Made by a program: the position numbers and the translations under genes
Shown: piece by piece, positions 1 to 18,486 of the stretch
Numbering within the stretch: the stretch's first letter is position 1
How the letters are laid out: every line of letters begins with the position of its first letter
Notes under the pieces: model-generated
What the model was told of the DNA's origin: nothing
The model's input: only the letters and a program-made list of their open reading frames with translations
Databases searched by the model: none
NCBI GenBank assembly: GCA_013314715.1
Contig: JABUFC010000020.1
Span: 1-56,230, forward strand
Direction of reading: 5' to 3'
DNA length: 56,230 bases
From: Bacteroidales bacterium
Lineage (GTDB): Bacteria; Bacteroidota; Bacteroidia; Bacteroidales; GWA2-32-17

Positions 1-2
1 AT

Positions 3-186
3 GTCTTAATCCTTGCAAAGTTTTTCCAAACAACGCTAGTTGTTGGTAGAATTTTAATGGACTATGCACTACGACACCCACATTTTCAAATTTCCTAATT
101 TCCACATTACCATGTCTTAATCCTTGCGAAGTTCTTCCAAACAACGCTAGTTGTTGGTAGAATTTTAATGGACAATGTACTACGAC
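3..186 (-). repeat. Two expanded CRISPR repeats with a shared 36-bp insertion
   Basis: Repeats at 3-75 and 114-186 are 73 bp long. Each has the first 13 and the last 24 bases of the normal repeat, separated by 36 extra bases (16-51 and 127-162). The two insertions differ at only two positions and contain an imperfect inverted repeat (CCAAACAAC, then GTTGTTGG). The outer flanks of the second copy match the consensus exactly, while the first copy has further substitutions. They enclose a 38-bp spacer (76-113), and a normal spacer (187-224) follows. Confidence 0.9.
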
Positions 187-2774
187 GTTGGCGATTGTTT
201 TATATCGTCTGAACCTGTTACAGGGTCTTAATCCTTGTTTTAATGGACAATGTACTACGACTAGTGGTTTTGTGTAGTAAACGGTAATAGTTATTCAAGG
301 TCTTAATCCTTGTTTTAATGGACAATGTACTACGACGCCGTCACTGCAGGACATTCTTAACGCTCCAGAGTTGTCTTAATCCTTGTTTTAATGGACAATG
401 TACTACGACGATTATGAGAATTTGCCATACTATTTTGATTATGGTATAGTCTTAATCCTTGTTTTAATGGACAATGTACTACGACAGGGTTATCTTACAG
501 ACGAACAACTCTTAATTAGGAGTCTTAATCCTTGTTTTAATGGACAATGTACTACGACTAATGTCAGCTCCAGAGTTTCAGGCAGACAAAGAAAAGTCTT
601 AATCCTTGTTTTAATGGACAATGTACTACGACAACAGGAAAATAATTTGTAAAGTATGATAAAAGTCAGTCTTAATCCTTGTTTTAATGGACAATGTACT
701 ACGACGTTATTATGGAAACAAAAGAATTAGCAAAAATTGTCTTAATCCTTGTTTTAATGGACAATGTACTACGACTTTTAATGTTGATTATTACTCTGGA
801 GACCCGTCTTATAAGTCTTAATCCTTGTTTTAATGGACAATGTACTACGACATCACTGGAAGAAATTCTCAATGCTCCAGAGTTTCAGGGTCTTAATCCT
901 TGTTTTAATGGACAATGTACTACGACTTGTCCGTTCGACGTAATGGACGACTAATCTCGTTGTCTTAATCCTTGTTTTAATGGACAATGTACTACGACGG
1001 AAGTGAGATATTCATTTTCATTGAAGATGGCAATAGTCTTAATCCTTGTTTTAATGGACAATGTACTACGACGTCTCAAATGGTGACAATGTCGCCATTC
1101 GAGAAAACCGTCTTAATCCTTGTTTTAATGGACAATGTACTACGACAAATTATAAAAATCAGCACTTACCAAAAAGGCGACAATGTCTTAATCCTTGTTT
1201 TAATGGACAATGTACTACGACGCCATAAAGACGCCAGCAACGTTGCCACATGGCTATAGTCTTAATCCTTGTTTTAATGGACAATGTACTACGACAACTC
1301 GAAGATGTGATGCAAGAAATTGCATCACAGTCTTAATCCTTGTTTTAATGGACAATGTACTACGACCGGACATATTTGTCCGTTCGACGTAACGGGAAAT
1401 TGATCGTCTTAATCCTTGTTTTAATGGACAATGTACTACGACATACTTATTTGTCGCTCAGACGAAACGGCAAGCTCAGTCTTAATCCTTGTTTTAATGG
1501 ACAATGTACTACGACACTTATTTGTCGCTCAGACGAAACGGACGACTCATCTGTCTTAATCCTTGTTTTAATGGACAATGTACTACGACAGAAATGTTAA
1601 ATTACTTTGAAAACAATATAGATTTTGTCTTAATCCTTGTTTTAATGGACAATGTACTACGACAACAAGTTAGGGAGTATTAATAAAAAAAATAAAATAG
1701 TCTTAATCCTTGTTTTAATGGACAATGTACTACGACTTGAGATTCAAAAAGGAAGAAATCAGTATAACCGTGGTCTTAATCCTTGTTTTAATGGACAATG
1801 TACTACGACTTTATCAGAAAAACGACAGGAGTTATCTTTCCTGTCGTAGTCTTAATCCTTGTTTTAATGGACAATGTACTACGACTTATATTTGTTGATA
1901 ACGGTAGCATTGTAGCAATGCTAGTCTTAATCCTTGTTTTAATGGACAATGTACTACGACATAGAATATACGAAATGTATAAACTCGAAAGTTTGTCTTA
2001 ATCCTTGTTTTAATGGACAATGTACTACGACAGATACTTACAGGATAACTATAACGGTGAAAGAAGTGTCTTAATCCTTGTTTTAATGGACAATGTACTA
2101 CGACGAAAAGAAACAAGAAGAAAAGAAGGAGGTGGACTGTCTTAATCCTTGTTTTAATGGACAATGTACTACGACGACCAAAAAGGCTTTATGAACTATT
2201 ACAAGGCAGGCGAGTCTTAATCCTTGTTTTAATGGACAATGTACTACGACAATATATAGCTAAGCCGTTTGATATTGATAAGTTTCTGTCTTAATCCTTG
2301 TTTTAATGGACAATGTACTACGACCTCAGCCATCAGCCCAAGCAATCTTGGGTGAAGGAGCAGTCTTAATCCTTGTTTTAATGGACAATGTACTACGACT
2401 ATACATAACAGAACGCCTACTCGACCGATTGTTTGAGTCTTAATCCTTGTTTTAATGGACAATGTACTACGACAAAGCGTGAATTTGCCGAACGTATGGC
2501 AACCGATACGGGTCTTAATCCTTGTTTTAATGGACAATGTACTACGACCTTATAAAAAATAAAATTATAGATGAAGTGGATGAATGGGTCTTAATCCTTG
2601 TTTTAATGGACAATGTACTACGACCCATACATTATTAAAGAGTTAAAAAAATATTTTACTACAAGTCTTAATCCTTGTTTTAATGGACAATGTACTACGA
2701 CACTTGCCAAGACGTCGAGCAAAGATATAGATATCGAGTCTTAATCCTTGTTTTAATGGACAATGTACTACGAC
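3..2774 (-). CRISPR. CRISPR array, 37 repeats and 36 spacers (type III-A locus)
   Basis: Thirty-five near-identical 37-bp repeats (225-261 through 2738-2774) plus two altered copies at the left end alternate with 36 spacers of 33-40 bp. On the + strand the repeat starts GTCTTAATCC and ends ATGTACTACGAC; on the minus strand it ends GGATTAAGAC, giving a likely 8-nt crRNA 5' handle ATTAAGAC. Transcription is inferred to run leftward. The AT-rich leader and a promoter lie at the right end beside cas2, the altered repeats lie at the left end, and most spacers read as coding sense on the + strand, so minus-strand crRNA would be antisense to mRNA. The array may continue beyond the left edge of the window. 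Short open frames inside it come from repeat translation and are not genes. Confidence 0.98.
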
Positions 2775-3020
2775 AGCAGATTTTTAATGATTTGATAATC
2801 AGTATCGTTTAAGAAAATTTAAGTTAAAATTAACATTTGTTAACATTTCAACACCCTGCACGCATTTAGCGATTTTAACACTTTTTTAACATTTCAACAA
2901 TTTGCAATAATATCGTTTTAACAAATTTTTAACATTTGTTAACGTATTTTAACAATCACAATCGGTCAAAGAACTTGGTACAAATATATAAATATATCAG
3001 ATAAATTCCAAAAAAATCAT
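2775..3020 (-). promoter_or_regulatory. CRISPR leader
   Basis: This is a 246-bp AT-rich, gene-free stretch between the last repeat and the cas2 stop codon. It has several copies of the motif TTAACATTT followed by GTTAAC or CAACA (near 2830, 2840, 2886 and 2929), some forming imperfect inverted repeats. It ends on the right with a promoter pointing into the array. Position, composition and the intact terminal repeat fit a leader where new spacers are inserted; the role of the TTAACATTT motifs as adaptation or protein-binding sites is inference. Confidence 0.75.
2981..3012 (-). promoter_or_regulatory. Predicted pre-crRNA promoter
   Basis: On the minus strand TTTG (3012-3009) is followed after 20 nt by TATATTTG (2988-2981). 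This matches the Bacteroidetes sigma-A pattern of a -33 TTTG and a -7 TAnnTTTG. Transcription would start near 2974 and run about 200 nt of leader before the first repeat. The site lies just downstream of the cas2 stop codon, so the array has its own promoter. Confidence 0.65.
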
Positions 3021-3473: not shown

Positions 3474-3475
3474 TA

Positions 3476-4474
3476 TTAAATTGATAATAGTTGTTGAATA
3501 AATTGAAGTACAATAAGTCCTAATTCTCCATCGCTTCCGTTTTTGGGAGTTCTAACAGCAGAGAATCCTTTTTTGCCATAGAAAATATTAATTTCGCACC
3601 ATCGATGTTGCAAGCAAATTTTAAGTTTTTTGCCATATTGAATATTTTCTATTTTTTCTATGAATAAACCTTGTTGTTCGAGTTGAGTTACGATGGAGGG
3701 TATAATTGCGTTTAGCTTTTCGGGCACATAAGGTATTTTTTGAGGTTGTTTATAGTTTGGATTCAGTTTTTGCTTGATATTTAAAAGGATGTCGTCAGAT
3801 AGGGTAGTTTGTTGGGTTTGAGTTGTAGGATGATTTTTTTCGTATGCAATAATTTGTTTTTGCAATTGTTCTATTTCGAGTGTATTATCTAAATTTATAA
3901 ATTCGTTATAGTTAATAGCCAGGCTTTGATAATTGACAAAAACTTCTGGGTCAAAGCTTAAAAAAGTAGCGCGTGTGGCATCGCAAGTTTTTAAATCGAT
4001 AAGTTCTTCGAATTGATACTGTTGTGCAAATTTAATAGCAAAAAGTTTATAAAAGTTTTTATAAAGTGCTATATCGTTTATTCGTGGTTGAAGTTTAAAT
4101 AATATTTTTAGTCCCTCGTTGCTTGGCGATGTAAAAGCACACAATACATTTGTGTTGGATGCTATTTGTTTTTTTACTTGATTAGGTGTAAGGTTTTGTT
4201 TTGATAAATGATCGATATCGATAATAAGATAATGGCTGTATGCAAAATTTTCGGTTCTTCGATGTGGTGGATTAAAAATAGATACAGTAAAATAAGGTAA
4301 CATGGTTTTGAGTTTTCGATATGCTTGTACATCGATGGTTTGTATTCGACGCAATTCTTCTATTTGATGTATTAAGGGTTTATATTCGCCCTTAATAATA
4401 TTAATAAGTTGATCAAAACTTATTTTAGCCAGTAAGTCGCCGCTTTGTTGAATATTTTTTCCTAACATGAACAT
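3476..4474 (-). CDS. CRISPR-associated primase-polymerase-like protein (BT4734/VirE-N type AEP domain)
   Basis: The first ~190 residues resemble the BT4734-like/VirE N-terminal domain of the archaeo-eukaryotic primase superfamily common in Bacteroidetes. A YLIIDIDHL stretch supplies a DxD pair (D86, D88), SPSNEGLK (116-123) fits the second motif, and TRATFLSFDPEVF supplies the third Asp (D175). The C-terminal ~100 residues are not recognised. Primase-polymerases of this kind sit with cas1 and cas2 in some type III loci (CAPPs) and are implicated in adaptation, perhaps by processing or copying prespacers. Here it lies between cas1 and cas2, 17 nt after cas1 and 2 nt before cas2. Met3 (4468) could also be the start. 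Confidence 0.8.
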   Translation of the reverse strand: MFMLGKNIQQSGDLLAKISFDQLINIIKGEYKPLIHQIEELRRIQTIDVQAYRKLKTMLPYFTVSIFNPPHRRTENFAYSHYLIIDIDHLSKQNLTPNQVKKQIASNTNVLCAFTSPSNEGLKILFKLQPRINDIALYKNFYKLFAIKFAQQYQFEELIDLKTCDATRATFLSFDPEVFVNYQSLAINYNEFINLDNTLEIEQLQKQIIAYEKNHPTTQTQQTTLSDDILLNIKQKLNPNYKQPQKIPYVPEKLNAIIPSIVTQLEQQGLFIEKIENIQYGKKLKICLQHRWCEINIFYGKKGFSAVRTPKNGSDGELGLIVLQFIQQLLSI

Positions 4475-4491
4475 GGTAGCAATATTTTAAA

Positions 4492-5487
4492 TTATAAATT
4501 TAAAAAATATTGAGCAAGTTGTTGTGCATATATATTAATATGTGTTAGTCGAGAACGTTCGAGATTATTGATGGTAATAATCTCGTTAAGATAATCGTTT
4601 ATCGATTGTATAAGTATTCTTTTTCCAGCAGCTTCTAACCAATAGGAACCATTATCTTGAATACTAAACCAATCTTCGGTAGGTGCTTCTTGCAGACATA
4701 AGTCGCATACAATATAATCGATCCATTGTCGGAATAATTCTATAATGTCAAAAACCAAGACGGGGCGGTTATAATTTTCGCGATGAAAAACTCCTAGATA
4801 GGGGTCTATGCCGGCTTTTATTAAAGCGCTTTCTATTTTACCATATAAAATACCGTAGCCGTAATTGAGCAGGCAGTTAAACATATCGAATGCGGGATGT
4901 TGGCTACGTTGTTCGAACCGATAAGGTTCTGGTAAAAGTTGCGATAATGTTTCGAAATAACGTTTACTAGCTATGCCTTCCCATCCTCTTATGCTTGGTG
5001 CTATATCGCTAATGGTTTCACCTTCAATTTGTTCAATTTTTTGAATATAGTCTTTTAAGGCGGTAATGGTTTGTAAAAAGTTAGGATTGTTTTGCCAAAA
5101 ATTTTTATCGATATCTTGTTTGCTTACTAAAGAATAGAGTAACGCCGTTTGATTTTTTATTTTCTCAATCAATATTTCTTTAATCCATGATATAGCCTTT
5201 TGTGAGTATATAAAATCGGCTTGTTTTTGGCGAATGGTAGAAATAGAACCATAGTTAACACTCCATATACGTCCCTTGGGGGTTCCTGTGTTATCGAGAA
5301 ATAATACGTCTATTTCGTGTTCAATGGCAAGCATTACTGCATCGCTTGTTATTTTGGCTCCTTTACTTATATAAATATTTTTTACTTTTTGGGGGTCGAT
5401 ATATTGTTTTCCTTCGCTATGTATAATTAAAAATTGCCGATTCTCTACATGCAGCGAGCTTCCAAAATTATTTAAAAAAATTTCCAT
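4492..5487 (-). CDS. cas1: Cas1 integrase
   Basis: Cas1 is the metal-dependent integrase of spacer acquisition. The 331-residue protein has the N-terminal beta domain (MEIFLNNFGSSLHV onward) and the helical catalytic domain. The catalytic Glu sits in GWEGIASKRYF, the His in GVFHRENYNRP, and the third acidic residue in VFDIIELFRQW. The ATG at 5487 is preferred over an upstream start because MEIFLNNFG begins the conserved first strand and the upstream codons run into the cas6 promoter region. It is not fused to a reverse transcriptase. It is the first gene of the leftward adaptation unit, divergent from cas6. Confidence 0.95.
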   Translation of the reverse strand: MEIFLNNFGSSLHVENRQFLIIHSEGKQYIDPQKVKNIYISKGAKITSDAVMLAIEHEIDVLFLDNTGTPKGRIWSVNYGSISTIRQKQADFIYSQKAISWIKEILIEKIKNQTALLYSLVSKQDIDKNFWQNNPNFLQTITALKDYIQKIEQIEGETISDIAPSIRGWEGIASKRYFETLSQLLPEPYRFEQRSQHPAFDMFNCLLNYGYGILYGKIESALIKAGIDPYLGVFHRENYNRPVLVFDIIELFRQWIDYIVCDLCLQEAPTEDWFSIQDNGSYWLEAAGKRILIQSINDYLNEIITINNLERSRLTHINIYAQQLAQYFLNL

Positions 5488-5516
5488 AATTTTATTAAAA
5501 TTTAAAAAAATATTTT

Positions 5517-5535
5517 TACATTTGCATCGATGCAA
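5517..5535 (+). promoter_or_regulatory. cas6 promoter element overlapping a 14-bp palindrome
   Basis: The 55-bp gap between divergent cas1 and cas6 contains TACATTTG (5517-5524), a perfect Bacteroidetes -7 element for rightward transcription. It overlaps a perfect palindrome TTGCATCGATGCAA (5522-5535). No convincing -33 box is visible. The palindrome covers the predicted start region of the cas6-csm operon and could be an operator; that role is inference. Confidence 0.5.
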
Positions 5536-5542
5536 CAAATTT

Positions 5543-6226
5543 ATGAAAAAATTAAAAACTCTCTATATTTCTTTTGAGAATGAAATAAAAATCAACGAAT
5601 TGTATGCATTTAGGTCGGCTATTATCGAAAAAGCAGGACGAAATCATATATTATTTCATAATCATCTCGATGCAGAAAAATATCTCTATCGCTATCCGCA
5701 AATACAATATAAAATAATAAATAATAAACCATCGTTATTATGCCTCGAAAAAGGTATAGACGAAATACATCATTTTTTTATTAAGCCGAGTTGGGATTTG
5801 CAATTATACAACCGAACTTATGAGGTAAAAGTTAGAAAATTACAAGTCAATCAGTTTACCATGCAAGTATGGGACCATGTATTTGTTTATAACCTTTACC
5901 GATGGAATCCATTAAGTCAAAATAATTATGTAAAATTTAAAGAATTACAAAATAGCGACCACCAAAAACAAATGTTACAAAAAATTTTGATCGGTAATAT
6001 ACTATCTTTTGCCAAAGGTATTGAATGGACTATTGACAAAGAAATAAAAGTAGAACTTAATTATGTTTCTGATGTAAAATGGTTACGCTACAAACAAAAT
6101 AAATTAGCATGTTTCGATGTGCAATTTAAAAGCAATGTTTTTCTGCCCAATTATATTGGTTTAGGGAAACATGCCTCACTTGGATTTGGAATAGTAAAAC
6201 AGTTAAAAGGTAAGAAAAATGAATAA
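5543..6226 (+). CDS. cas6: Cas6 crRNA-processing endoribonuclease
   Basis: Cas6 cuts pre-crRNA within the repeats to give crRNAs with an 8-nt 5' handle. The 227-residue protein ends with the hallmark glycine-rich loop, YIGLGKHASLGFGIVK, and has the two-RAMP-domain size of the family. His residues near position 40 (ILFHNHLD) are candidates for catalysis, but I cannot assign the active site with certainty. The ATG at 5543 is chosen because the seven codons before it would start at a TTG inside the promoter palindrome. It is the first gene of the csm operon and overlaps cas10 by 8 nt (ATGAATAA). Confidence 0.85.
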   Translation: MKKLKTLYISFENEIKINELYAFRSAIIEKAGRNHILFHNHLDAEKYLYRYPQIQYKIINNKPSLLCLEKGIDEIHHFFIKPSWDLQLYNRTYEVKVRKLQVNQFTMQVWDHVFVYNLYRWNPLSQNNYVKFKELQNSDHQKQMLQKILIGNILSFAKGIEWTIDKEIKVELNYVSDVKWLRYKQNKLACFDVQFKSNVFLPNYIGLGKHASLGFGIVKQLKGKKNE

Positions 6227-8876
6227 CGATAAAGATAAAATACGCGAAGAAATATATCTGGGTGCATTGCTGCACGATATAGGGAAGTTTTATCAAAGAG
6301 CAAGTGGAGATTTTGACTCAAATGATAGTAATTTATCAGAAGATACAAAAAAACTCGCCAATTATATCTGTCCAATCAATCAAAATGGATACTACGGTTA
6401 TCAGCATGTATTGTGGACAGCTCAATTTTTTAAGAATAATAAAGAAAATTTCAATAAAATTCTAAATACTTCAGAAAATAAAATAGATAATTTTATTAAT
6501 TTTTCAATTTATCATCATAAACCTGCTTCGCTTAATCAAGCAATAGTTCAACTTGCCGATTGGTGGGCTAGTGGAATAGACAGAAGTCAGTCTGAAGAAT
6601 ATTCAAACCACTTTATTAACTGGGGAAAAGAAAAATACAAAAAAGTACCCTTATCGGCCATTTTTCAAAATTTGTATGTAAATAACAAAAGACCCAATAG
6701 GGAAAATGAATGGTATTTTAATTTAAAAACGTTAGAAATTAACAAAGAAACTATATTTCCTAATGCATTAAAAGAAAATCAACTAACCTCTCATCAAGAA
6801 AAATATAATACTATATGGAAACAATTTAATACCGAATTTCAAAATTTACCCACAGGAAATTTTAAAGTTTTTATTGAAAGTTTATATTTTCTATTAAAAA
6901 AATATACCTGGTGTATTCCTGCTTCCACAAAAGATTATCCTGATTCAAGTTTATTTGAACATTCTAAAATGGTAGCAGCTTTTGCAGACTGTTTATTTAG
7001 ATTCTACGTAGAAAACTCAGATGCATTTAATTATGATAATTCTAGATTCAGAATTAAATTAAAAAATGAAAAAGAACATAAATATTATCCTGTTATTTTA
7101 CTATGTGTTGATTTATCAGGCATTCAAAATTTTATATATAATATCTCGAGTAAAAGAGCTGCAAAAAGTTTAAGAGGTCGGTCTTTTTATTTGCAAATAT
7201 TAGTAGAAACTATTACCAATCAATTACTTGAAAAAACAGATACATTCCGTTCTAATGTTATTTATTCCAGTGGTGGGAAAATGTTTATGCTTCTTCCCAA
7301 TACTCAAAATATTCGTGAAACTATATCAAATTACAGAGAAAATTTAGAAAATTGGATATGGAAAGAATTTAATGGTGATATTTATATAAGTTTAGATTAT
7401 GTAGCTTTTGCTTATGATATGGATCACCGAGATGAAAAAGGCCAGAATTTGCTAATTGAAGGAAAGAATAATTATTATTACTTAGGAGATTTATGGAAGG
7501 AAGTTGTAGATAAAACTGCAAAATGCAAAAACAGGAAATTTAAATCTATAATAAAAAATGACACAAGTTTTTTTGATCCTTTTGGTCAAGGAGGTGATAT
7601 AGATATTTGTGCTATTACTGGTATTGAATCGAATAACTTAAAAAATCTTGAAAAAAATAATTACGAAGAAGAGATAAAAATATTACCTATTGTAAAAACG
7701 CAAATTGAAATAGGAGAAAATTTAGTTAACCATAAATACCTTCTTTACAGCAAGCAAAAACAACCTGATAATATTTTTAAATCAAGTAAGTATTCTTTTG
7801 AAATATTTAATTCTTATTGGTATATATTTGATAATAATGGATATAACAACGTTACATCTATTGATGATGGAATAATATACTACGAAAATAATTTTGATTT
7901 TTTATCTAATACAAAGGGCGAAAAAAGTTCAAACGCATATAGGTTTTATGGAGGAAACCGTGTTCCTGAGATAAATGAAAGAATGAAAACATTCGAAGAA
8001 CTTGTTGATAAAGAAGCTGCTTTTAAGCGTCTTGCTATTTTGCGAATGGATGTGGATAACTTAAGTCAGATATTTATAAATGGTTTCAAACAAAAAGACG
8101 ATAAGGGAAATATCATTAAAGATGGAAGTAATTTTTCAAGATTATCAACTTTATCATTTCAATTAGATTTATTTTTTAGTGGCTACATCAATAAGATACA
8201 TGAAAATTATAGAGATAAAATAATAATTGTTTATTCAGGCGGAGACGATTTATTTGCTGTAGGCGATTGGCAAGCTATTATCAATTTTGCTGAGGATGTT
8301 CGCAACGAATTCAGAAACTATGTATGCAATCGTGAAGATATTTCGCTATCGGGTGGGATTGTGCTAGTCGATAAAAAATTTCCCATCAGCAAAGCAGCTG
8401 AATGGGCTGATGAAGCTGAAAAAAAGGCTAAAAAATTTGGAGAAATAAAAAAATATGATGAAGCTAATTGTAAAGTATATGAAGAAGTAGAAGCTATAAA
8501 AAATGCTGTAAATTTATTTGGTGAAAATATAAACTGGCATAAAGAATTTGATGGAGTTAAAGCGATGAAGGATTTTTTGTATGATACTTTAAAAAATCAG
8601 AAACTATCTAAAGGATTATTGCAAAAAATATTCATATTCAGAAACATGAAGAAGTCAAATAATCTTGGATGGCATTGGGTATCGGCATATACTTTTGCGC
8701 GTCATAAAAATGAAAAAAATAAAGATTGTATTGAAAAACTCAAAAATTATTTTATTACAGGTGCAATAAATCTGAATAATAAAGATTATAAGTTTGGAGA
8801 TAGGGCTATAGATATACTTGCAATTGCAGCCCGCTGGGCCGAATTGAAACTTAGAAGTGAAAAAAATGCTGAATAA
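6219..8876 (+). CDS. cas10: Cas10/Csm1, large subunit and cyclic oligoadenylate synthase
   Basis: This is the signature subunit of type III complexes. Near the N-terminus GALLHDIGKFY gives the HD nuclease motif (H19-D20), the site of single-stranded DNA cleavage in the family. The first Palm domain begins around VDLSGIQNFIY. The second Palm domain carries the GGDD motif (residues 674-677, SGGDDLFAVGDW) that converts ATP to cyclic oligoadenylate when target RNA binds. Both sites look intact, so DNA cleavage and signalling are both expected, which fits the three CARF effectors downstream. The 885-residue length is at the long end for Csm1. It overlaps cas6 upstream and the Fic gene downstream. 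Confidence 0.96.
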   Translation: MNNDKDKIREEIYLGALLHDIGKFYQRASGDFDSNDSNLSEDTKKLANYICPINQNGYYGYQHVLWTAQFFKNNKENFNKILNTSENKIDNFINFSIYHHKPASLNQAIVQLADWWASGIDRSQSEEYSNHFINWGKEKYKKVPLSAIFQNLYVNNKRPNRENEWYFNLKTLEINKETIFPNALKENQLTSHQEKYNTIWKQFNTEFQNLPTGNFKVFIESLYFLLKKYTWCIPASTKDYPDSSLFEHSKMVAAFADCLFRFYVENSDAFNYDNSRFRIKLKNEKEHKYYPVILLCVDLSGIQNFIYNISSKRAAKSLRGRSFYLQILVETITNQLLEKTDTFRSNVIYSSGGKMFMLLPNTQNIRETISNYRENLENWIWKEFNGDIYISLDYVAFAYDMDHRDEKGQNLLIEGKNNYYYLGDLWKEVVDKTAKCKNRKFKSIIKNDTSFFDPFGQGGDIDICAITGIESNNLKNLEKNNYEEEIKILPIVKTQIEIGENLVNHKYLLYSKQKQPDNIFKSSKYSFEIFNSYWYIFDNNGYNNVTSIDDGIIYYENNFDFLSNTKGEKSSNAYRFYGGNRVPEINERMKTFEELVDKEAAFKRLAILRMDVDNLSQIFINGFKQKDDKGNIIKDGSNFSRLSTLSFQLDLFFSGYINKIHENYRDKIIIVYSGGDDLFAVGDWQAIINFAEDVRNEFRNYVCNREDISLSGGIVLVDKKFPISKAAEWADEAEKKAKKFGEIKKYDEANCKVYEEVEAIKNAVNLFGENINWHKEFDGVKAMKDFLYDTLKNQKLSKGLLQKIFIFRNMKKSNNLGWHWVSAYTFARHKNEKNKDCIEKLKNYFITGAINLNNKDYKFGDRAIDILAIAARWAELKLRSEKNAE

Positions 8877-9603: not shown

Positions 9604-9623
9604 AACCTTTAAAAAAATAAATT

Positions 9624-10109
9624 ATGAATTATTCTCAACATCAAAATCAGGCAAATCCCAACAATCAAGCAGAGAATCAAGATAAAATAAAAAGTTGGGA
9701 GGAAATTAAAAATGGATGGCAAAACGATTGGATAACATCCTCTTATGGAATTACAAAAGAAGCCATTAAATGGGCTGAAGATTTTGGAAAATACTTAGCA
9801 GTAGATAAAAATAAAATAAAAAAATTAACAACATCTCAGTTGAGAAAGTTCTTTAGTCATTTAAAACGTATGCAGGCTATTGGTTTTGATGAAAACAACA
9901 AAACGGACTTGTATATGCTAAAAGCACAGCTTGCTTATGCCAATGGAAGAGATAAAAAAGAGGGAGGACAAAACAAAACAAAAATTTGCCATTTTGCAGA
10001 GATGTTGTTTGAGGCGATTGACCAAGTTCAAACAAAAGAACACTTCAAAAACTTTGCAAATATAGTAGAAGCCATTGTTGCTTTTCATAAAGCAGCAGGA
10101 GGCGAATAA
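9624..10109 (+). CDS. csm2: Csm2, small helical subunit of the Csm complex
   Basis: Csm2 lines the inner filament of the type III-A complex and helps hold crRNA and target RNA. The 161-residue, mostly helical, charged protein has the family's features: TTSQLRKFFSHLKRMQ in the middle and a C-terminal VEAIVAFHKAAGG. The first ~25 residues are Asn/Gln-rich and look disordered. It follows the Fic gene by 20 nt. Together with csm5 it marks the system as III-A rather than III-B. Confidence 0.9.
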   Translation: MNYSQHQNQANPNNQAENQDKIKSWEEIKNGWQNDWITSSYGITKEAIKWAEDFGKYLAVDKNKIKKLTTSQLRKFFSHLKRMQAIGFDENNKTDLYMLKAQLAYANGRDKKEGGQNKTKICHFAEMLFEAIDQVQTKEHFKNFANIVEAIVAFHKAAGGE

Positions 10110-10156
10110 TCTAAATTTTTTAAAATGTAATTTGTATAACATAAAAATTAAAAACT

Positions 10157-10852
10157 ATGAAACAACTGGAAAAGAAAATTTTTATATCAGCAACATTAAA
10201 TCTATTAACAGGCCTTCATATCGGCGATAACAAAGAAAGCATCGAAATCGGCGGGGTAGATAATCCAGTAGTCAGAAGAAAAGATAATAATGAACCATAC
10301 ATACCAGGTAGCTCGCTGAAAGGCAAAATGAGATGCTTGTTAGACCAAATTTATGGAGTAAATCCTGATGGCAAATGTAAATCTGAAAACTATACCAATG
10401 ATGCAAAAATTATTGCTGATTTATTCGGAGCATCGGGTGATAATGGTAATCCATCTCGTTTAATTGTCAGAGATGCTTATTTAACGGAAGAATGGGCAGA
10501 AAAACTAAAAAATAGTGAATTTACAGACATGCCTTATACCGAAATAAAATTTGAAAATGTTATCAATCGGGTTAAAGGAACCGCCGAACATCCACGACAA
10601 ATAGAAAGAGTACCGGCTGGTGCTGAATTTGAAGTAAACTTTATTATTAACATTTTCAAAGATGATAAAGAAAGCGATTTGTTGGATTTGTTTTATAAAG
10701 GGATACAATTACTTCAAGATGATTACTTAGGCGGCAGCGGTTCAAGAGGGTATGGCCAAGTACAAATTGAAATAAAAGAAAGAAAAGAAAAACTTTATAA
10801 AGTGCAAGTGAATGGTCAAATAGAAATTGAAGAAAAAATTATAAATAACTAA
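10157..10852 (+). CDS. csm3: Csm3, backbone RAMP subunit with target-RNA cleavage activity
   Basis: Csm3 polymerises along the crRNA and cuts bound target RNA every six nucleotides. The 231-residue protein shows the RAMP fold: an N-terminal GLHIGD strand, the catalytic Asp in IGGVDNPVVRR (D35), the conserved YIPGSSLKGKMR glycine/lysine loop, and a C-terminal GGSGSRGYGQV loop. The catalytic Asp is present, so target RNA cleavage, and with it shut-off of Cas10 activity, is expected. Spacing is 47 nt after csm2 and 19 nt before csm4. Confidence 0.95.
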   Translation: MKQLEKKIFISATLNLLTGLHIGDNKESIEIGGVDNPVVRRKDNNEPYIPGSSLKGKMRCLLDQIYGVNPDGKCKSENYTNDAKIIADLFGASGDNGNPSRLIVRDAYLTEEWAEKLKNSEFTDMPYTEIKFENVINRVKGTAEHPRQIERVPAGAEFEVNFIINIFKDDKESDLLDLFYKGIQLLQDDYLGGSGSRGYGQVQIEIKERKEKLYKVQVNGQIEIEEKIINN

Positions 10853-10871
10853 TTGGATTAATTCTTTAACT

Positions 10872-11867
10872 ATGTCATTTGTTCTGTTTAGGTTAAAATT
10901 TTCTACTCCACTTCATATCAGTAATGTAAGGAGTGACTATGCACAAAGCGAAACTATTATCCATAGCGATACGTTGTATTCTGCTTTTTTTGAAGCATGG
11001 ATTAAACATGGACTAACCCAACAAATCGAAAAACAAATCAATCAATTACAATTTACCCTTTCAAGTTTATTCCCTTTTACTATGGATAATAAAACTAAGG
11101 AATATGTTTACTTTTTTCCTAAGCCATTAAATCTGAGCTATGCAAAAGTTAGCGAAAAAAAACATAAAGACATTAAAAAAATTCAATATGTTGATAAAAA
11201 TTTTTTAGAAAAATATAGAAATGGATACAGAGAACTGATTGATGAAGATTATAACTTAGTAAAAGGAAAATATCTTACTGAGGGATGTATAGATACAAAC
11301 TTTATATCATCAGAGGTTTTTCCGCGTGTAACTATTCCACGACAGGGAGGAGATGCTACACCCTACTATATTGAACGAATTTTCTTTAAAGAAAACTCTG
11401 GTTTGTTTTTTATTGCACAGTTTGATAATGATGAGATAAAAAATCATGTCATTTCAGCACTCCATTATTTATGCGATGAAGGTATCGGGACAGACCGTCA
11501 TGTGGGTAACGGTTTCTTTCAATTTGAAGAAGATACCATAGATTTTGAAACCATCCCTTCTGATTATGCCTTCAATCTTTCTCTTTATTGCCCATCAGCA
11601 GAACGTGTTAAAGAAATCATGAATGATGACCATATTGCTTACGACATCATTACACGAGGAGGCTGGATAACAACCCCTGGTTACAATACCCTAAGAAAAA
11701 AATATATACGAATGTTCAAAGAAGCAAGTATTCTAAAAATCAACTATACAACAGATGGTCGTATTGTTGATATAACCCCCGACAAAACTACGCTTCCTGA
11801 AACTGCCCAAAATATACATCCAGTGTATAGAGTTGGTAAATCATTATTTCTAACTGTTAAGGTTTAA
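10872..11867 (+). CDS. csm4: Csm4, RAMP subunit binding the crRNA 5' handle
   Basis: Csm4 pairs with Cas10 at the base of the complex and holds the 5' handle. The 331-residue protein begins with a RAMP strand (FVLFRLKFSTPLHIS), has SETIIHSDTLYSAFFEAW, which is typical of Csm4/Cmr3-type proteins, and a glycine-rich GIGTDRHVGNGFFQFE loop. The C-terminal HPVYRVGKSLFL resembles the second RAMP domain. It sits in the usual place between csm3 and csm5, with a 10-nt gap to csm5. Confidence 0.92.
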   Translation: MSFVLFRLKFSTPLHISNVRSDYAQSETIIHSDTLYSAFFEAWIKHGLTQQIEKQINQLQFTLSSLFPFTMDNKTKEYVYFFPKPLNLSYAKVSEKKHKDIKKIQYVDKNFLEKYRNGYRELIDEDYNLVKGKYLTEGCIDTNFISSEVFPRVTIPRQGGDATPYYIERIFFKENSGLFFIAQFDNDEIKNHVISALHYLCDEGIGTDRHVGNGFFQFEEDTIDFETIPSDYAFNLSLYCPSAERVKEIMNDDHIAYDIITRGGWITTPGYNTLRKKYIRMFKEASILKINYTTDGRIVDITPDKTTLPETAQNIHPVYRVGKSLFLTVKV

Positions 11868-11877
11868 ATTTGAATCT

Positions 11878-13452
11878 ATGAGTGAATTAAATTATAATTA
11901 CAAACTAAAACTAAAGGTTTTAACCCCTTTGCATATTGGGGCAGGCAAAGAAAAAGATTGGATAAAAGGGATTGATTATATAATTCATAATGGTTATTTG
12001 TATATTCTTAACCAAAAAAAGTTATTTGAATACCTAAATAACAAACAACTTCTTGAAAAATACATAAACTTAATTTCAAAAAATCATTATTCAGAAATCG
12101 AAAAATTTTTTAGAGAAAATTTAAAAGAAGATATTAAATCTATCTCACAATCAACCTATGAAAATATTAATAATATCAATACCGAAATTAAATATTTTAT
12201 TCGTGATGGAATGGGAAAAGCATATATTCCAGGAAGTTCGATAAAAGGGGCGATTAGAAGTGTGTTATTTAGTTATATACTCAAAAATCATAACAAGGAG
12301 ATAACCTCAATAACTAAATACGATAGAAGGACAAATTCAGAAGTACCAATAGAAAAAAGGGAATATATTGAATATGCATTAGGTAATTATGATAAAAGTA
12401 TAATGCGATTCATCAAACCTAACGATATCTATGGATTAGATGATTATTTATCCATATACAACGTTAATTTATACAATGTAAAACATCCTCAAAATAACTC
12501 AAAATCTGAGACCAAAAATATTGTTACTATCGAATGTTTGTACCCATTTGAAAATATTCCCTCTTTCGACTTTCAACTCAACATTGCAGAGCCCTTTATA
12601 AATGTAATCAATAATAAATATAACCGACAATATAACCTGCCAAAATACAAAAATGATGTTTTTAAAAATAGAGAAAAAGAAACCATTCATCACTTATTCA
12701 AAATCATCAACGAATATACCTATCAACATATAGAAAAAGAAATAAAGTTCTTTGAAAAGTACACTCACACCAGCAATATAGAAGAAAACATTATTAAAAA
12801 ATTGAAAGAAATTCAAGATAAAACTAAAGACCACAAAAAAAGTTGTGTTCTTAGAATGAGCTATGGCTCAGGATTTCATGGAATAACCGGTGATTGGTTA
12901 TTTGATGACCATTCAATAGATACTATTAAATTGGAAAAAAATAAAACAGATGAAGATTATAAATCTGTAGCATACTTAAATAAAAGAAAAACTGCTAAAT
13001 CCCGCCGAATTATTGACGACACCTATCCATTAGGATTTATAGAACTTATATTGTTAGATGATAGACCCGACAACCTTTCGCCTTTTTCTGCTGAAAAAGT
13101 ATCTGATAGTAAAGTTAAGAGTAATATACCTAAAGTAGAAATATCAAAAACTAACGAAATAAATAAAACAAATCAAAATATAATTGAGCACACACAACCA
13201 AGGCAATCCTTTAAAACCATTACCCGTTTAAATGAAATTGCAAAAGGAAAATATGTTGTAGCTGAAATTTCACAATTAGGAAAACCATCGCATAAAGTTA
13301 AAATTGTATTAGAAAATAAGATTTTTGAAACAATTATATCAAATGTTAAAAATGCTAATTTAAAGATAGGTGATAAAGTTATTGCTGAGATAAAAGATAA
13401 TAAGGGAAGCGAAAAAATTAATATGGTAGCCTTTGTATCTCATTTTAAATAA
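11878..13452 (+). CDS. csm5: Csm5, capping RAMP subunit with an extra C-terminal domain
   Basis: Csm5 caps the 3' end of the complex and takes part in crRNA trimming. Family signs are KLKVLTPLHIGAG at the N-terminus, AYIPGSSIKGAIRSVL near residue 115-130, and a conserved LRMSYGSGFHGITGDW loop around residue 325. At 524 residues it is longer than most Csm5 proteins. The final ~85 residues (about 440-524) follow a low-complexity linker and form a small beta-rich segment, with VVAEISQLGKPSHKV and IGDKVIAEI, that looks like an OB-fold or TRAM-like nucleic-acid-binding unit; that identification is tentative. It is the last gene of the csm unit before a 93-nt gap. Confidence 0.92.
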   Translation: MSELNYNYKLKLKVLTPLHIGAGKEKDWIKGIDYIIHNGYLYILNQKKLFEYLNNKQLLEKYINLISKNHYSEIEKFFRENLKEDIKSISQSTYENINNINTEIKYFIRDGMGKAYIPGSSIKGAIRSVLFSYILKNHNKEITSITKYDRRTNSEVPIEKREYIEYALGNYDKSIMRFIKPNDIYGLDDYLSIYNVNLYNVKHPQNNSKSETKNIVTIECLYPFENIPSFDFQLNIAEPFINVINNKYNRQYNLPKYKNDVFKNREKETIHHLFKIINEYTYQHIEKEIKFFEKYTHTSNIEENIIKKLKEIQDKTKDHKKSCVLRMSYGSGFHGITGDWLFDDHSIDTIKLEKNKTDEDYKSVAYLNKRKTAKSRRIIDDTYPLGFIELILLDDRPDNLSPFSAEKVSDSKVKSNIPKVEISKTNEINKTNQNIIEHTQPRQSFKTITRLNEIAKGKYVVAEISQLGKPSHKVKIVLENKIFETIISNVKNANLKIGDKVIAEIKDNKGSEKINMVAFVSHFK

Positions 13453-13490
13453 AATTTTCACTCTAAGGAAAAGTATAATAAATTATGTCA

Positions 13491-13526: not shown

Positions 13527-13545
13527 CATAAATATTATCACTATA

Positions 13546-14736
13546 ATGAAAATAATCAAACGCCCAAGATATCTCGAAAAAATTAAACCGCACATTGGTA
13601 AAAATATCATTAAAGTTTTAGTGGGTGCACGACGAACGGGTAAAACTTATCTCCTATTTCAAATTATCGAAGAAATTAAAAAAATAGATTCACAAGCCAA
13701 TATCATTTACATCAATAAAGAACAATACGAATTTCGATTCATTGATAACGATGAAAATCTATACAGTTACGTCGTAAGTAAGTCAAAAACTAATAAAAAA
13801 AACTATGTTTTTATTGATGAAGTACAGGAAATAAAGTATTTTGAAAAGGCTTTAAGAGCATTACTTGTGGATGATTTTGATATTTACTGCACCGGCAGTA
13901 ATGCTCATATGTTATCTTCTGATATTGCAACCTACTTAAGCGGTAGATATATCGAAATACCTGTGTATAGTTTATCATACAAAGAATTTTTAAAATTTCA
14001 TAATCTTAAAAACACAAAAAATTCTCTGACAAAATATATCAAATATGGAGGGTTACCTTATCTTATAAACCTTGAATTAAACGACGAAATTGTATATGAT
14101 TATCTTTCAAATATATACAATACAATTATTTTAAAAGATGTAGTTACACGATACAATATTCGCGACATAGATTTTTTACAAAGATTAATAGAATATACAT
14201 CCGATAATCTTGGAAGTTACATATCAAGCAAAAAAATTACCGATTATCTAAAATCACAGAAAGTTAGTTTATCTGTCAATACCGTAATGAATTACTTACA
14301 ATATCTGCAAAATGCCTTCTTTATTGATAAAGTTAGACGATATGATATAACAGGGAAACGAATTTTTGAAATAAACGAAAAATATTATTTTCGAGATTTA
14401 GGATTAAAGCATTCTGTAGTGCCTTATAAACCCAATGATATAGCTAAAATATTAGAAAATTTAATTTACAATCAACTAATTTTTAACGGATATACCGTTT
14501 ATACCGGCAAACTATATGACCTCGAAATAGATTTTGTGGCCATACGAGGTAATGAAAAAATATACATACAAAGCACCTACTTATTATCAGACGATAAAAC
14601 TGTGGAAAGAGAATTTGGTAATTTACTTAAAATAAAAGATAATTATCCCAAATTAGTGATTTCAGCGGATGATTTTACAATATCAAATTATGAGGGGGTT
14701 GAACACTTAAATATTTTAAATTTTCTTAATAAATGA
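13546..14736 (+). CDS. AAA-type ATPase with C-terminal DUF4143 nuclease-like domain
   Basis: The 396-residue protein has a Walker A motif GARRTGKT (27-34) and a Walker B motif YVFIDEVQEI, followed by a sensor segment DIYCTGSNAHML, a winged-helix-like middle, and a C-terminal DUF4143-type domain (NLIYNQLIFNGYTVYTGK through EIDFVAIRG and IYIQ). The last part resembles a PD-(D/E)XK fold, with Gln where an active enzyme usually has Lys. This family is widespread and poorly understood. Its ATG follows a dedicated promoter and its stop overlaps the next gene by ATGA, so it is the first gene of the effector unit and not a chance neighbour. Its role in the CRISPR response is unknown. Confidence 0.85.
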   Translation: MKIIKRPRYLEKIKPHIGKNIIKVLVGARRTGKTYLLFQIIEEIKKIDSQANIIYINKEQYEFRFIDNDENLYSYVVSKSKTNKKNYVFIDEVQEIKYFEKALRALLVDDFDIYCTGSNAHMLSSDIATYLSGRYIEIPVYSLSYKEFLKFHNLKNTKNSLTKYIKYGGLPYLINLELNDEIVYDYLSNIYNTIILKDVVTRYNIRDIDFLQRLIEYTSDNLGSYISSKKITDYLKSQKVSLSVNTVMNYLQYLQNAFFIDKVRRYDITGKRIFEINEKYYFRDLGLKHSVVPYKPNDIAKILENLIYNQLIFNGYTVYTGKLYDLEIDFVAIRGNEKIYIQSTYLLSDDKTVEREFGNLLKIKDNYPKLVISADDFTISNYEGVEHLNILNFLNK

Positions 14737-15845
14737 ATCGCCACCTACATATCACCCTCGTTGGAGGGCAAACTGTCCCGGTTTATCAGGGCATTATTTA
14801 CGACCAGCCCGATTATGTAATTTATATCTGCTCCGAACAGACCAATAGTTCTATAGAACTTATTGCTTCTGCAACTTCTATTCCATACGAATTAAAATCT
14901 CTTTCACCTGTTGATATTAAAGATGTTGAGGAGTATTTAGATTTTTTAAAATCTATCATTCAAAATTATGAACGTATAACCATAAATATTTCAAGTGGCA
15001 CAAAAATATGGAGTATATTGTTTTACGATTATTTCAAAAATATTGAAAAGGCTAAGATAATTTATATTGATCAAAACAATAAAATATGGAATTTTAAGAC
15101 AAAACAATGTTCCGATCATGAGTTTATTACCGATATTCAAAACTATTTGATTATTCTGGGCAGTAAAGTAAATAATTTCAAGAAGATTGAGAATTTTGAT
15201 GCAAGCGATATCCAAGCCGTCAAAACAATAGAGGAGATAAGAAAATTTGATTATGTTGAGTTTAATGCTTTAACCCAATCCCTTTCGAATCATTCAAATT
15301 TAAATGAATATTCAACTACACAAGGGTCGTTAATAAAATATGATACTGAAGAAAAATCGTTTTACCTGAAATTGATCAAAAAAAGTGGAACAAGCAAGGA
15401 ATGCAAACTAAAATCGCCCAATATTCGCTATTTATTACTCAATACAGGTTGGTTTGAGTTTAAAGTGGCAAACATTTTATCGAAATGGAATCATGCAAAA
15501 CAAATAATTTTGAATTGTGATTTTCAAACTAAAGAAGGGGCTTTAAAAAATGAAGTTGATGTAATTGTCAATACCGGCAAAAAACTGCTTTTTGTTGAAT
15601 GCAAAACCCAGGTTTATAACTCTACCGATATTGATAAATTTGCTTCGGTAATTCGCAATTACGGTGGATTAGGGACAAAAGGAATTTTGATAACCGAGGT
15701 TGATATTAATAAAAATGTGCTTGAGAAATGTGAGGATAATGGATTACTTACCTTTTGTTTAAACCAGGGTAATTACATGTTTTCGCCCGAACAAATGTTA
15801 TACCTAAAATTAGAGAGCGAATGGCTGAATATAAATCCAAGATAG
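14733..15845 (+). CDS. CARF-domain nuclease of the Card1/Can2 (DUF1887) type
   Basis: In this family a CARF domain senses cyclic tetra-adenylate and activates a PD-(D/E)XK nuclease that cuts single-stranded DNA and/or RNA. Residues 1-~150 form the CARF domain; ITINISSGTKIWSI carries the conserved SSGTK ligand-contact turn. The C-terminal half has the full nuclease motif: E242 in GWFEFKVA, D276 in NEVDVIV and E289-C-K291 in FVECKTQ. The length (370 residues) fits the family. The start overlaps the AAA gene stop by 4 nt, and the 3' end overlaps the deaminase gene by 25 nt. The exact substrate cannot be read from sequence. Confidence 0.9.
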   Translation: MNRHLHITLVGGQTVPVYQGIIYDQPDYVIYICSEQTNSSIELIASATSIPYELKSLSPVDIKDVEEYLDFLKSIIQNYERITINISSGTKIWSILFYDYFKNIEKAKIIYIDQNNKIWNFKTKQCSDHEFITDIQNYLIILGSKVNNFKKIENFDASDIQAVKTIEEIRKFDYVEFNALTQSLSNHSNLNEYSTTQGSLIKYDTEEKSFYLKLIKKSGTSKECKLKSPNIRYLLLNTGWFEFKVANILSKWNHAKQIILNCDFQTKEGALKNEVDVIVNTGKKLLFVECKTQVYNSTDIDKFASVIRNYGGLGTKGILITEVDINKNVLEKCEDNGLLTFCLNQGNYMFSPEQMLYLKLESEWLNINPR

Positions 15846-17908
15846 ACAAGAACATCATTGTAACCACATTTGGAGGCACCTGGCTTATTTTACCGGAAAT
15901 AATAGGATTTTGCTGTGATAATGTAACTATTTTTTGTAAAAACGATATATATGATTCATTTATTCAAACCTTAAAAAATAACAATGTTACCACAATCGAT
16001 GAATTGTGGGTAATCTGTACACACGGAGAAACATCTAATAAAGCAATTGAAAATTTTAATTTATGGTATAAACAAGTAAGCGAAAAAGGAATAAACATAC
16101 CAGAATGCAAGTTTATCGGACTCAAAGATATATCGGATTTGACTACTGAAGCTGTATGTAAACAAATGGCCGATTTTATTTTTCGAGTAGTTTTAAAGGC
16201 CTATGAAGAAAAAAGAAACGGCAAATTACTATTGTCGTTGGCCGGAGGTCGCAAGACTATGAGTTCCGATATGCAACGCGCTGCATTCTTCTTCGGATGT
16301 GACATCTTGTTTCACATTGCTGATAGTGGAAGCCCACTAGGAGCAGAACCTAATAAATTATTAGACACTCTTAATGAAAAAATGGCAAATGCTGTTTTTC
16401 CTGTGATTATTCAGGAAAAAATTCCAACAAGTCCATTAACCGAAATACCCACAAAACTAATATCATCAGATTATCCTATAGAGTTTAACCGAGAAAATAT
16501 AGCTTCAACAATTTTATTAGATGAAATAAACAATAGACTCATTAATGCCCAAAGTATAAGTTTTAATGCATATAAACTAAGAACTAGTGATTTTAAAATG
16601 AGTATATTTCAAGGTTTACATCAATTAAACCCAATAATTTTAAACCAACTTAATACCGAAAAACCCGACATAGAATGGATAAATAAATTACCCAAAACCG
16701 ATTTACATTGTCATTTTGGGGGAATATTAGACATACAAGGATTGATAAAAGTTGCTAAAGCCAATGAAAATAAAATTCTTGAAGCACTATCGCAAAATAT
16801 TCAATTTAAACAATGGTATAACAGTATTTATCATTTGGTTGAACAAGCCAATATTGATGAGTTAAAAAAAATTTTAAATCACAAAGATTATCTTAGACAA
16901 GAAATTCCAGAAAAATACAACTTACCTCGTCCTTTACCTTTGGCATCCTTCATTATTTGTTTCAAAAAGAAAACAGATTTACTAGAAAAAATAATTTTTG
17001 GAGAGTACCAACAATCCAACAAATATAGAAATATTGGCATAGAATCATACGAACGTTTAGGCGATTTACAAGGTAGTGGATTACTACAATCAAAAGAATC
17101 AATTGTTGAAGCATGCCATTATCTAATTGATTATTGTAAACAACATAACATTAAATATCTCGAGTTACGTTGTTCTCCAGTAAATTATACAATGGGGGGA
17201 TTAAAAGAGGATGAAATTGTTTTAATACTGCATAATGAGTTTGAAAAATGTAGAAATATTGTTGACATTCGTTTAATTATTATCGGTTCACGACATGGGG
17301 ATGCAAATGTTTTCAGAAGACATGTTACCCTAACTCAGAATTTCTTAAGGGATGTAAGGTATAAAAATTTCATCGTTGGTTTCGATGTTGCGGGGAACGA
17401 AGCCAAAAAATCACCGAAACAATTGCGTGAAGAATTACTCCCATTGATGAAAGAATGTGTTCGATTCACCATACATGCTGGTGAAAATCAACCTGTAGAA
17501 AATATTTGGGAGGCAGTTTATGAGTTAAATGCCGATCGAATAGGTCATGGTTTAACCTTACTGAAAAATAAAGAATTACTAGATAGATTTCGCGACAAAA
17601 ATATTTTTATCGAACTATGCCCATCAAGTAATTATCAAATCTGCGATTTTGAAAATAATGAATATCCCCTAAAAAAATATTTTGAGGAAGGTTTAAAAAT
17701 TACAATTAATACCGACAATCCAGGTATATCAAGAACCAACATCACAAACGAATACTACTTTGCATCAAAAATTGCAGATTTAAATAAAATACAGATAATA
17801 CAGTTAATACGAAATAGTATTCAAGGAACTTTTTTACCCAAAAATGAAAAAAAGAAACTTATACTTCAATTTGAAGAAGAAATTTACAAAATCTTGACTA
17901 ATGAATAA
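15821..17908 (+). CDS. cad1: CARF-adenosine deaminase effector (Cad1/CAAD)
   Basis: This is a fusion of a CARF sensor and an adenosine-deaminase-like enzyme. Residues 1-~230 form the CARF part, with the ligand-contact stretch LSLAGGRKTMS (AGGRKT at 141-146). Residues ~290-690 carry the metal-dependent deaminase signature: TDLHCHFGG (H296, H298), TIHAGE (H552), RIGHG (H576) and NTDNP (D632). ELCPSSN is also conserved. The Asp pair usual in this family (TDD) is TDN here, so the second position is Asn. Members of the Cad1 family are reported to deaminate ATP to ITP on cyclic oligoadenylate binding, arresting growth. The next gene is a Nudix hydrolase overlapping by 8 nt, suggesting that the product is processed further. 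Confidence 0.93.
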   Translation: MAEYKSKIDKNIIVTTFGGTWLILPEIIGFCCDNVTIFCKNDIYDSFIQTLKNNNVTTIDELWVICTHGETSNKAIENFNLWYKQVSEKGINIPECKFIGLKDISDLTTEAVCKQMADFIFRVVLKAYEEKRNGKLLLSLAGGRKTMSSDMQRAAFFFGCDILFHIADSGSPLGAEPNKLLDTLNEKMANAVFPVIIQEKIPTSPLTEIPTKLISSDYPIEFNRENIASTILLDEINNRLINAQSISFNAYKLRTSDFKMSIFQGLHQLNPIILNQLNTEKPDIEWINKLPKTDLHCHFGGILDIQGLIKVAKANENKILEALSQNIQFKQWYNSIYHLVEQANIDELKKILNHKDYLRQEIPEKYNLPRPLPLASFIICFKKKTDLLEKIIFGEYQQSNKYRNIGIESYERLGDLQGSGLLQSKESIVEACHYLIDYCKQHNIKYLELRCSPVNYTMGGLKEDEIVLILHNEFEKCRNIVDIRLIIIGSRHGDANVFRRHVTLTQNFLRDVRYKNFIVGFDVAGNEAKKSPKQLREELLPLMKECVRFTIHAGENQPVENIWEAVYELNADRIGHGLTLLKNKELLDRFRDKNIFIELCPSSNYQICDFENNEYPLKKYFEEGLKITINTDNPGISRTNITNEYYFASKIADLNKIQIIQLIRNSIQGTFLPKNEKKKLILQFEEEIYKILTNE

Positions 17909-18482
17909 ATTAATTGCTACTATACATAGGGATTATTTACCCAAAAATGTTTTACAGGAAAAGGCCATATTATTTTTGGATGTTGAAAAAATAGAAACTT
18001 TTCTTACTAAAGTTGAGTTTCTACCACGTGAAAAAGTGGAAAAAATTATAGATTACAAGCAAATAATACCCTATATCGTTCTTGAAAATGAATTTAATCA
18101 AATTGCTGCTTACAAAAGAAAAGGTAACGAATTGCGATTGCATCATTTATGGTCTATTGGATTTGGTGGTCATATAGAACATACTGATGTTGAAAATAAT
18201 TTCTGCACAGAAACAATAAAAAAAGCTGCTATTCGGGAATTAAAAGAAGAGTTTTCGGATAAAGTAAACTATGAATTAATATTTAAAGGAATTATTAATG
18301 AAGAAATTACAGATGTTGGTAAAAACCACTTGGGATTTGTATTTAAAACTCGGGTAAAAAAAAATGAGTATATTCTATCTAAAGAAATCGGTAATATAGA
18401 TTGGATAAATTTTCACAACATTAATCTTTCAGAATTTGAATTATGGTCTCAAATGACCATGGAATTATTAACTAAAAATTAA
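17901..18482 (+). CDS. Nudix hydrolase coupled to the deaminase effector
   Basis: Nudix enzymes hydrolyse a nucleoside diphosphate linked to another group. The 193-residue protein has GGHIE (89-93) and, after a longer loop than the classical box, E-x7-RELKEE (RELKEE at 112-117), which supplies the metal-binding glutamates. The first ~60 residues are a separate N-terminal segment (PREKVEKIIDYK). It overlaps the cad1 stop by ATGAATAA and precedes the HEPN gene by 4 nt. A role in hydrolysing ITP or other nucleotides made by Cad1 is inferred from this placement and from reports of Nudix partners of such deaminases; turnover of an adenylate signal or an NAD-type substrate is also possible. Confidence 0.85.
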   Translation: MNKLIATIHRDYLPKNVLQEKAILFLDVEKIETFLTKVEFLPREKVEKIIDYKQIIPYIVLENEFNQIAAYKRKGNELRLHHLWSIGFGGHIEHTDVENNFCTETIKKAAIRELKEEFSDKVNYELIFKGIINEEITDVGKNHLGFVFKTRVKKNEYILSKEIGNIDWINFHNINLSEFELWSQMTMELLTKN

Positions 18483-18486
18483 TCTT

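Follow-up and report, generated by a model that had tools for sequence, protein, structure and literature searches.

The CRISPR array of a type III-A locus in a Bacteroidales genome holds families of spacers that fall on the same short coding sites. Members of a family differ in the way diverging coding sequences do, share one reading sense, begin at nearly identical positions and lie close together in the array, and a second genome, which encodes the same kind of adaptation module with a CRISPR-associated primase-polymerase of type B (CAPP-B), shows the pattern again in one of its arrays, a long one. We consider it probable, at about two chances in three, that these spacers were repeatedly captured or retained at fixed coding sites from diverged members of an unsampled invader group. 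The sites would thus be hotspots of capture or of retention, and the invaders were presumably viruses or phages. The stretch analyzed, hereafter the window, is the entire contig C20 (56,230 nucleotides) of a 3.0 Mb genome, whose other array-bearing contigs are C32, C46, and C13.

The CRISPR-Cas locus and its array

The locus belongs to type III-A, since it has a cas10 gene with HD and GGDD motifs together with csm2 to csm5, and its adaptation module is of the CAPP-B type, with a primase-polymerase that scores above the family cut-off and lies between cas1 and cas2. The cas1, cas2, and CAPP-B genes diverge from a block made of cas6, cas10, a Fic-family gene, csm2 to csm5, and accessory genes. 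The features of the window are as follows.

1..224, no strand assigned: older array end, two elongated 73-nt repeats with an internal insert of ~36 nt and a spacer-like unit between them
187-224: spacer no. 2, following the elongated repeats at the older end
225..2774, minus strand: CRISPR array with 35 perfect 37-nt repeats, probably transcribed leftward from the leader
~2775..3020, no strand assigned: AT-rich leader-like stretch beside cas2; a near-identical stretch adjoins array repeats on contig C46
3021..3473, minus strand: cas2 (PF09827)
3476..4474, minus strand: CAPP-B (NF040562, 345 bits against a cut-off of 200)
4492..5538, minus strand: cas1 (PF01867), in which no reverse transcriptase domain was found
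5522..6226, plus strand: cas6 (PF17262/PF17955)
6219..8876, plus strand: cas10 (csm1)
9624..13452, plus strand: csm2, csm3, csm4, csm5
14733..20168, plus strand: accessory genes, encoding a Card1-like nuclease, an adenosine deaminase fused to a CARF-like part, a NUDIX protein, and a TM1812 family protein

A Pfam scan of 20 genes (3021 to 22437), 3 of which have no Pfam family at all, found no reverse transcriptase, which sets the locus apart from type III systems with RT-Cas1. Among the accessory genes there is also a Csx20-like match, weak and under its cut-off. The type III-A operon includes the Fic-family gene (8857-9603), which separates cas10 from csm2, and the NUDIX gene directly follows the deaminase gene; one may speculate that its product acts on the product of the deaminase.

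Because ATTAAGAC forms the end of the repeat on the minus strand and the leader-like stretch lies to the right of the array, the crRNAs are predicted to be minus-strand molecules, antisense to peptides encoded on the plus strand and so complementary to the corresponding mRNA. The position of this stretch beside cas2 also fits the proposal of the first-pass annotation that spacers at the left are the older ones.

Further array pieces occur on contigs C32 and C46. The spacer set of the genome numbers 48, reduced to 43 once five copies of the spacer-like unit beginning with ACCCACATTT are dropped. At four contig ends (C20, C32, C46, and C13), repeats are split at one internal point by inserts of ~36 nt or ~99 nt (window 1-186; L035 3680-4733; L043 1-530; G000:C13:63555-64187, or L108), and one recurring spacer-like unit of 36-38 nt lies between many of these interrupted repeats, in a partly tandem arrangement. 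On C46 the leader-adjacent repeat carries the insert, which would therefore be copied at each new acquisition. The outer flanks of two array ends (L035 ~3540-3675 and L108 ~538-635) bear a short element whose ends are similar to CCTTTGCAAAACT and TTTTGCAAAGG and which, judged by eye only, resembles a small mobile element.

Four families of same-site spacers

The first-pass annotation had singled out four spacers as encoding variants of one peptide on the plus strand. These spacers, here family A, are indeed variants of TYLS(L/V)RRNG(K/R)LI and lie exactly where it placed them.

927..961, plus strand: family A spacer no. 12, LSVRRNGRLIS
1367..1405, plus strand: family A spacer no. 18, RTYLSVRRNGKLI
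1443..1478, plus strand: family A spacer no. 19, TYLSLRRNGKL
1516..1552, plus strand: family A spacer no. 20, TYLSLRRNGRLI

Their peptides score 37-53 in pairwise BLOSUM62 comparison, with nucleotide identities of 61-88%; in three sets of shuffled spacers the top-scoring pair reaches 36, 27, and 34. The excess of third-position differences that had been reported is borne out by the counts (15/67, 5/64, and 31/64 at codon positions 1, 2, and 3, summed over six pairs that are not independent). So is the neighbouring placement of three of the four, nos. 18, 19, and 20 being consecutive, for which the probability by chance is 0.018 with 4 spacers among 36. The family looks mosaic: nos. 12 and 18 have their 5' half in common and nos. 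19 and 20 share theirs, while the 3' part GGACGACTnATC is common to nos. 12 and 20, across this grouping.

Restricting the pattern to one family was too narrow, as three others, B, C, and D, behave like A in the array and in the pieces on C32.

337..372, plus strand: family B spacer no. 4, PSLQDILNAPE
559..595, plus strand: family B spacer no. 7, MSAPEFQADKE, sharing GCTCCAGAGTTTCAGG with no. 11
852..889, plus strand: family B spacer no. 11, SLEEILNAPEFQ
1886..1923, plus strand: family C spacer no. 25, IFVDNGSIVAML, with a partner on contig C32 (L035 4183-4219)
999..1035, plus strand: tentative family C spacer no. 13, GSEIFIFIEDGN, score 25, within the chance range
Contig C32: family D, two spacers

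The best pairs of these families score 42-45, above the values of 36, 27, and 34 at which the shuffled sets peak, and two shuffles of the own-genome set gave no pair scoring at least 36. The peptide of no. 7 scores 30, below the cut-off of 36, and was joined to family B by a 16-nt DNA identity with no. 11.

Same-site pairs in other arrays

CAPP-B scores above the family cut-off in 7 of 149 related genomes, our own counted. All six other loci were examined; five gave arrays, and one (L118) gave none in the array finder. Using one pipeline for all arrays and calling same-site any pair that scores at least 36, we found 9 pairs among the 43 spacers of the window set and, in G029, a genome of the same order, 14 variant and 3 near-identical pairs among 133 spacers. 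The other arrays yielded one pair in G012 (28 spacers), one near-identical pair in G111 (13 spacers), and none in G026 (6 spacers) or G044 (5 spacers). There were no same-site pairs in two shuffles of each array, nor among the 89 spacers of a Runella plasmid array taken as control. The latter is a single control from another class; it adjoins cas6-cas1-cas2-cas4 and has no CAPP annotated in the stretch, whose gene table is incomplete.

In G029, 11 spacers tile a hotspot of ~84 nt encoding TKKDPKVSIFLYFVEAGTVKVRASSYNR and variants, and a further two perhaps continue it in the upstream direction, beyond a possible start codon. A likeness between family C and the hotspot peptide was seen by eye only and was set aside, all cross-array pairs involving the window scoring 30 or less. 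The proteins scanned in G029 include Cas1, Cas2, RAMP proteins, and the products of two Card1-like genes, and those in G012 include Cas1 and an adenosine-deaminase effector; the scanned sets of both genomes do not include Cas10. That a related species with the same type of system has the same habit hints at a return to fixed sites of the invaders. Only the long arrays of the window and of G029 show the pattern strongly, four of the five CAPP-B arrays outside the window being short, and a link with CAPP is a candidate association, which one control array from another class does not establish.

Divergence, reading sense, start positions, and folding

Pooling the four families, differences fall on codon positions 1, 2, and 3 in 31/131, 14/131, and 67/128 cases, a count that takes in the tentative spacer 13 (score 25) and spacer 7 (score 30). 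The variant pairs of G029 give 21/129, 20/132, and 65/133, and the third-position excess is absent from the single pair of G012 (4, 5, and 3 of 12). Plus frames are open in 41 of the 43 spacers of the genome, against 34.2 +/- 2.5 in shuffles (p 0.0035), and frames of the opposite strand in 40 against 38.8 (p 0.37). This excess is not specific, because the control array shows one too, with open target-sense frames in 82 of 89 spacers against 72.3 +/- 3.6 in shuffles. The sense bias of the window agrees with the coding-strand bias known for type III spacers (PMC8482600).

Spacer boundaries shift by 0-9 nt between family members. Of the 22 variant pairs in the target sense, 15 have starts offset by at most 3 nt, where a null of simulated coding divergence, conditioned on what the search can detect, predicts a share of 0.295-0.333 (binomial p 2e-4 to 9e-4 over pairs). 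The coincidence persists over 13 cluster representatives (10/13 within 3 nt, p 6e-4 to 1.6e-3), which were hand-chosen; averaging all the pairs of each cluster lowers the figure to ~9/13. Same-site spacers are also close to each other in the arrays, with p 0.003 in G029 and 0.007 for families A and B of the window, whereas treating the G029 hotspot with its 11 spacers as a single cluster gives no significant closeness (p 0.14). Family B precedes family A entirely, the probability of such a separation, either way round, being 0.057. All these p-values assume independence of pairs or clusters, and they are optimistic to the extent that the pairs of a family depend on each other.

Stable folds (-5.5 or lower) are found in 7 of the 43 spacers, against 0.68 expected from 37-mers of the window: six at 1296-1329, 1367-1405, 1810-1848, 1886-1923, 1073-1109, and 2325-2362 and one at L035 4110-4145, with perfect stems of up to 10 bp. 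Perfect stems of at least 6 bp are not significantly enriched over the 43 spacers (6 against 3.4 expected, p 0.12). G029 has a similar excess of stable folds, with 15 of 133 spacers at p <=0.02 against 2.7 expected, and the control array a weaker one (5 of 89 against 1.8). An origin of the families in hairpins was considered and found unsupported: a consensus fold is absent in B and D and weak in A and C.

Searches for the targets

Eight scans of viral_contigs, covering families A to D and spacer 29 (two scans for A, three for B, one for C, two for D, one of them shared by B and D, and one for spacer 29), and two of genome_contigs, one with the strict pattern of family A and one on B and D only, revealed no credible protospacer. 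The strict patterns of family A, used on viral_contigs, genome_contigs, and 295 genomes of the order, restrict L/V to CTN/GTN and serine to TCN; the relaxed one, used on viral_contigs, widens the L/V and serine codons, replaces TAY by TWY, and adds a leading ACN. Looking for the family A peptide and its codon variants in phage sequences, as the first-pass annotation had recommended, gave no credible match in viral_contigs with either pattern. Within its own genome, the family A pattern matches only the four spacers and a four-family profile matches only the arrays. Family A has one chance-like match beyond the own genome among the 295 order genomes. The four-family profile has one match in 393 genomes of the order (E 0.0044, about chance level for that many searches) and none at E 0.003 in 395 genomes of the phylum besides the own genome, these samples overlapping.

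Peptide profiles of B and D gave 52 pattern matches in viral_contigs and 328 in genome_contigs, all unconfirmed. Another 23 loose-pattern hits in viral_contigs look unrelated. The nearest loose-pattern hit, L054, has EILNAPEF in common with family B (score 42); we take it as chance, without proof, because the pattern itself selects most of EILNAPEF, the residues on either side are different, and scores of the other families in this locus are at about the level of their shuffles. Neither tblastn of X-padded peptides against phages, in which even a perfect 12-residue match is estimated to fall short of E 10, nor PHROGs and Pfam scans of padded peptides returned anything. With composites of 29-44 residues, one PHROG (E 0.34) and one PDB chain (E 1.5) were retrieved, and no Pfam or phage match. 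BLAST of the array and of two spacers produced weak matches that resemble chance or the repeats of other arrays: those to Felixounavirus, from the array, overlap a repeat in part, and one spacer matches a microvirus over 20 aligned bases, antiparallel to the annotated gene. A check on microvirus sources with PF02305 found 0 of 393 genomes positive, but the control genomes also gave 0, so that it excludes nothing.

The first-pass annotation had read family A as repeated acquisition from a diverging phage gene and as a lasting contest with one virus group. The view that spacers were acquired repeatedly as a coding sequence diverged is upheld by the third-position excess, by the existence of four families, by the second genome with the pattern, and by the closeness of same-site spacers in the arrays. 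The attribution to a phage, and to a single virus group, finds no support in these searches, since they gave no credible protospacer. Since overlapping variant spacers allow fragments of the proteins of an unseen target to be read from the arrays, they also offer a way forward: the G029 array provides a 44-residue composite, long enough for searches of RNA viruses and metatranscriptomes.

Explanations of the pattern

Under the reading we favor, a type III-A system with its own Cas1, Cas2, and CAPP-B would capture or keep spacers at preferred short coding sites, and the arrival of a diverged relative of the same group of viruses or mobile elements would lead to capture or retention at the old site again. 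A crRNA complementary to the mRNA would license Cas10-Csm, and that of one variant may often pair poorly with the next; each variant may have needed its own spacer, since identity within family A is so low. The variants could instead all come from one virus, plasmid, or integrative element, met in one or a few infections, in which a protein family has paralogous members or internal repeats. As the target was not found, diverging orthologues and paralogues within one element are inseparable, and the closeness of family members in the array and the mosaic look of family A suit the latter. Yet the four families here and the eight target-sense variant clusters of G029 would each need paralogues, and differences at about half of the third positions suit lineages long separated, which makes this explanation rather unlikely in our view. 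The proximity of nos. 18-20 might also evoke duplication of spacers inside the array followed by mutation, but mutation in the array would not spare codon positions 1 and 2, the 35 repeats are perfect, and the boundaries are shifted by 0-9 nt; this is hardly credible. Diversity-generating retroelements produce variation limited to adenine positions, and a target of this kind is ruled out by the C/G and C/T differences and by the third-position bias.

Random sampling of a genome of ~3-5 kb (a microvirus, a small plasmid, or an RNA phage) could crowd spacers together without any preferred site. Supposing a common source group for all 43 spacers, the probability of having at least 12 in overlap clusters (nos. 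7 and 13 counted), with one cluster of at least 4, falls from 0.24 at 3 kb through 0.11 (4 kb) and 0.05 (5 kb) to 0.002 (10 kb). Purely random sampling would thus need a target of ~5 kb or less, and of ~3 kb or less for the hotspot of G029, where the probability of 11 spacers in a 60-nt start window is 0.38, 0.03, and 0.004 for genomes of 2, 3, and 4 kb. The starts coincide too well for this account, which we regard as unlikely. Guided, primed-like re-acquisition, in which a partly matching crRNA steers capture to its own site, would explain both the coinciding starts and the timing suggested by closeness in the array, and priming in type III systems is an open question according to a 2022 review (PMC9048733). 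The same-site starts and the closeness are compatible with the usual sign of primed adaptation, new spacers around an old target, without demanding it: the pattern would equally be expected from a fixed hotspot or from selection for effective sites, and type III adaptation reportedly needs only Cas1 and Cas2 (PMC9048733). We find guidance of this kind quite improbable. A broader conjecture is that CAPP-B type III systems return to fixed coding sites, either guided by crRNAs or because a site is cut or folded in a fixed way, and that their source is a pool absent from databases of DNA viruses, possibly RNA phages; we would give this only a small chance. CAPPs use RNA templates inefficiently (PMC8211822), which speaks against simple capture of RNA by CAPP, and RNA phages as a source are a mere possibility.

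Comparison with known systems

Targets are unknown for a larger share of spacers in type III than in any other type (PMC8482600). Spacer pools of RT-linked type III systems likewise include sources that were not found (PMC5513706), whereas here reverse transcriptase is absent in the 20 genes scanned. Among the literature matches listed, consisting of titles and beginnings of abstracts with subscription journals mostly uncovered, same-site variant families in type III arrays are undescribed, and they may thus be new. Return to the same site, if general, would be a measurable signature of the choice or retention of spacers in type III systems.

CAPP-B is almost confined to Bacteroidetes, and in their type III loci CAPP lies between cas1 and cas2, as it does here (PMC8211822); the passages of that work treat biochemistry, and same-site spacer families are absent from them. 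Type III-A acquisition has been described as preferring ssDNA hairpins and sites close to start codons (PMC9048733). Stable folds are enriched in our spacers, but stems of at least 6 bp are not significantly so and the control array is mildly enriched too; the hotspot of G029, for its part, may lie just after an ATG. A further parallel is type III acquisition by Thermus thermophilus during phage infection (PMC7515739), which has both a strand bias towards spacers complementary to RNA and a hot region, as would hold here with the predicted crRNA direction, and in which bias and hot region are attributed to selection. The hot region of Thermus is nevertheless a multi-kilobase early region of one phage, while here the sites span ~36 nt and the sources would be diverged.
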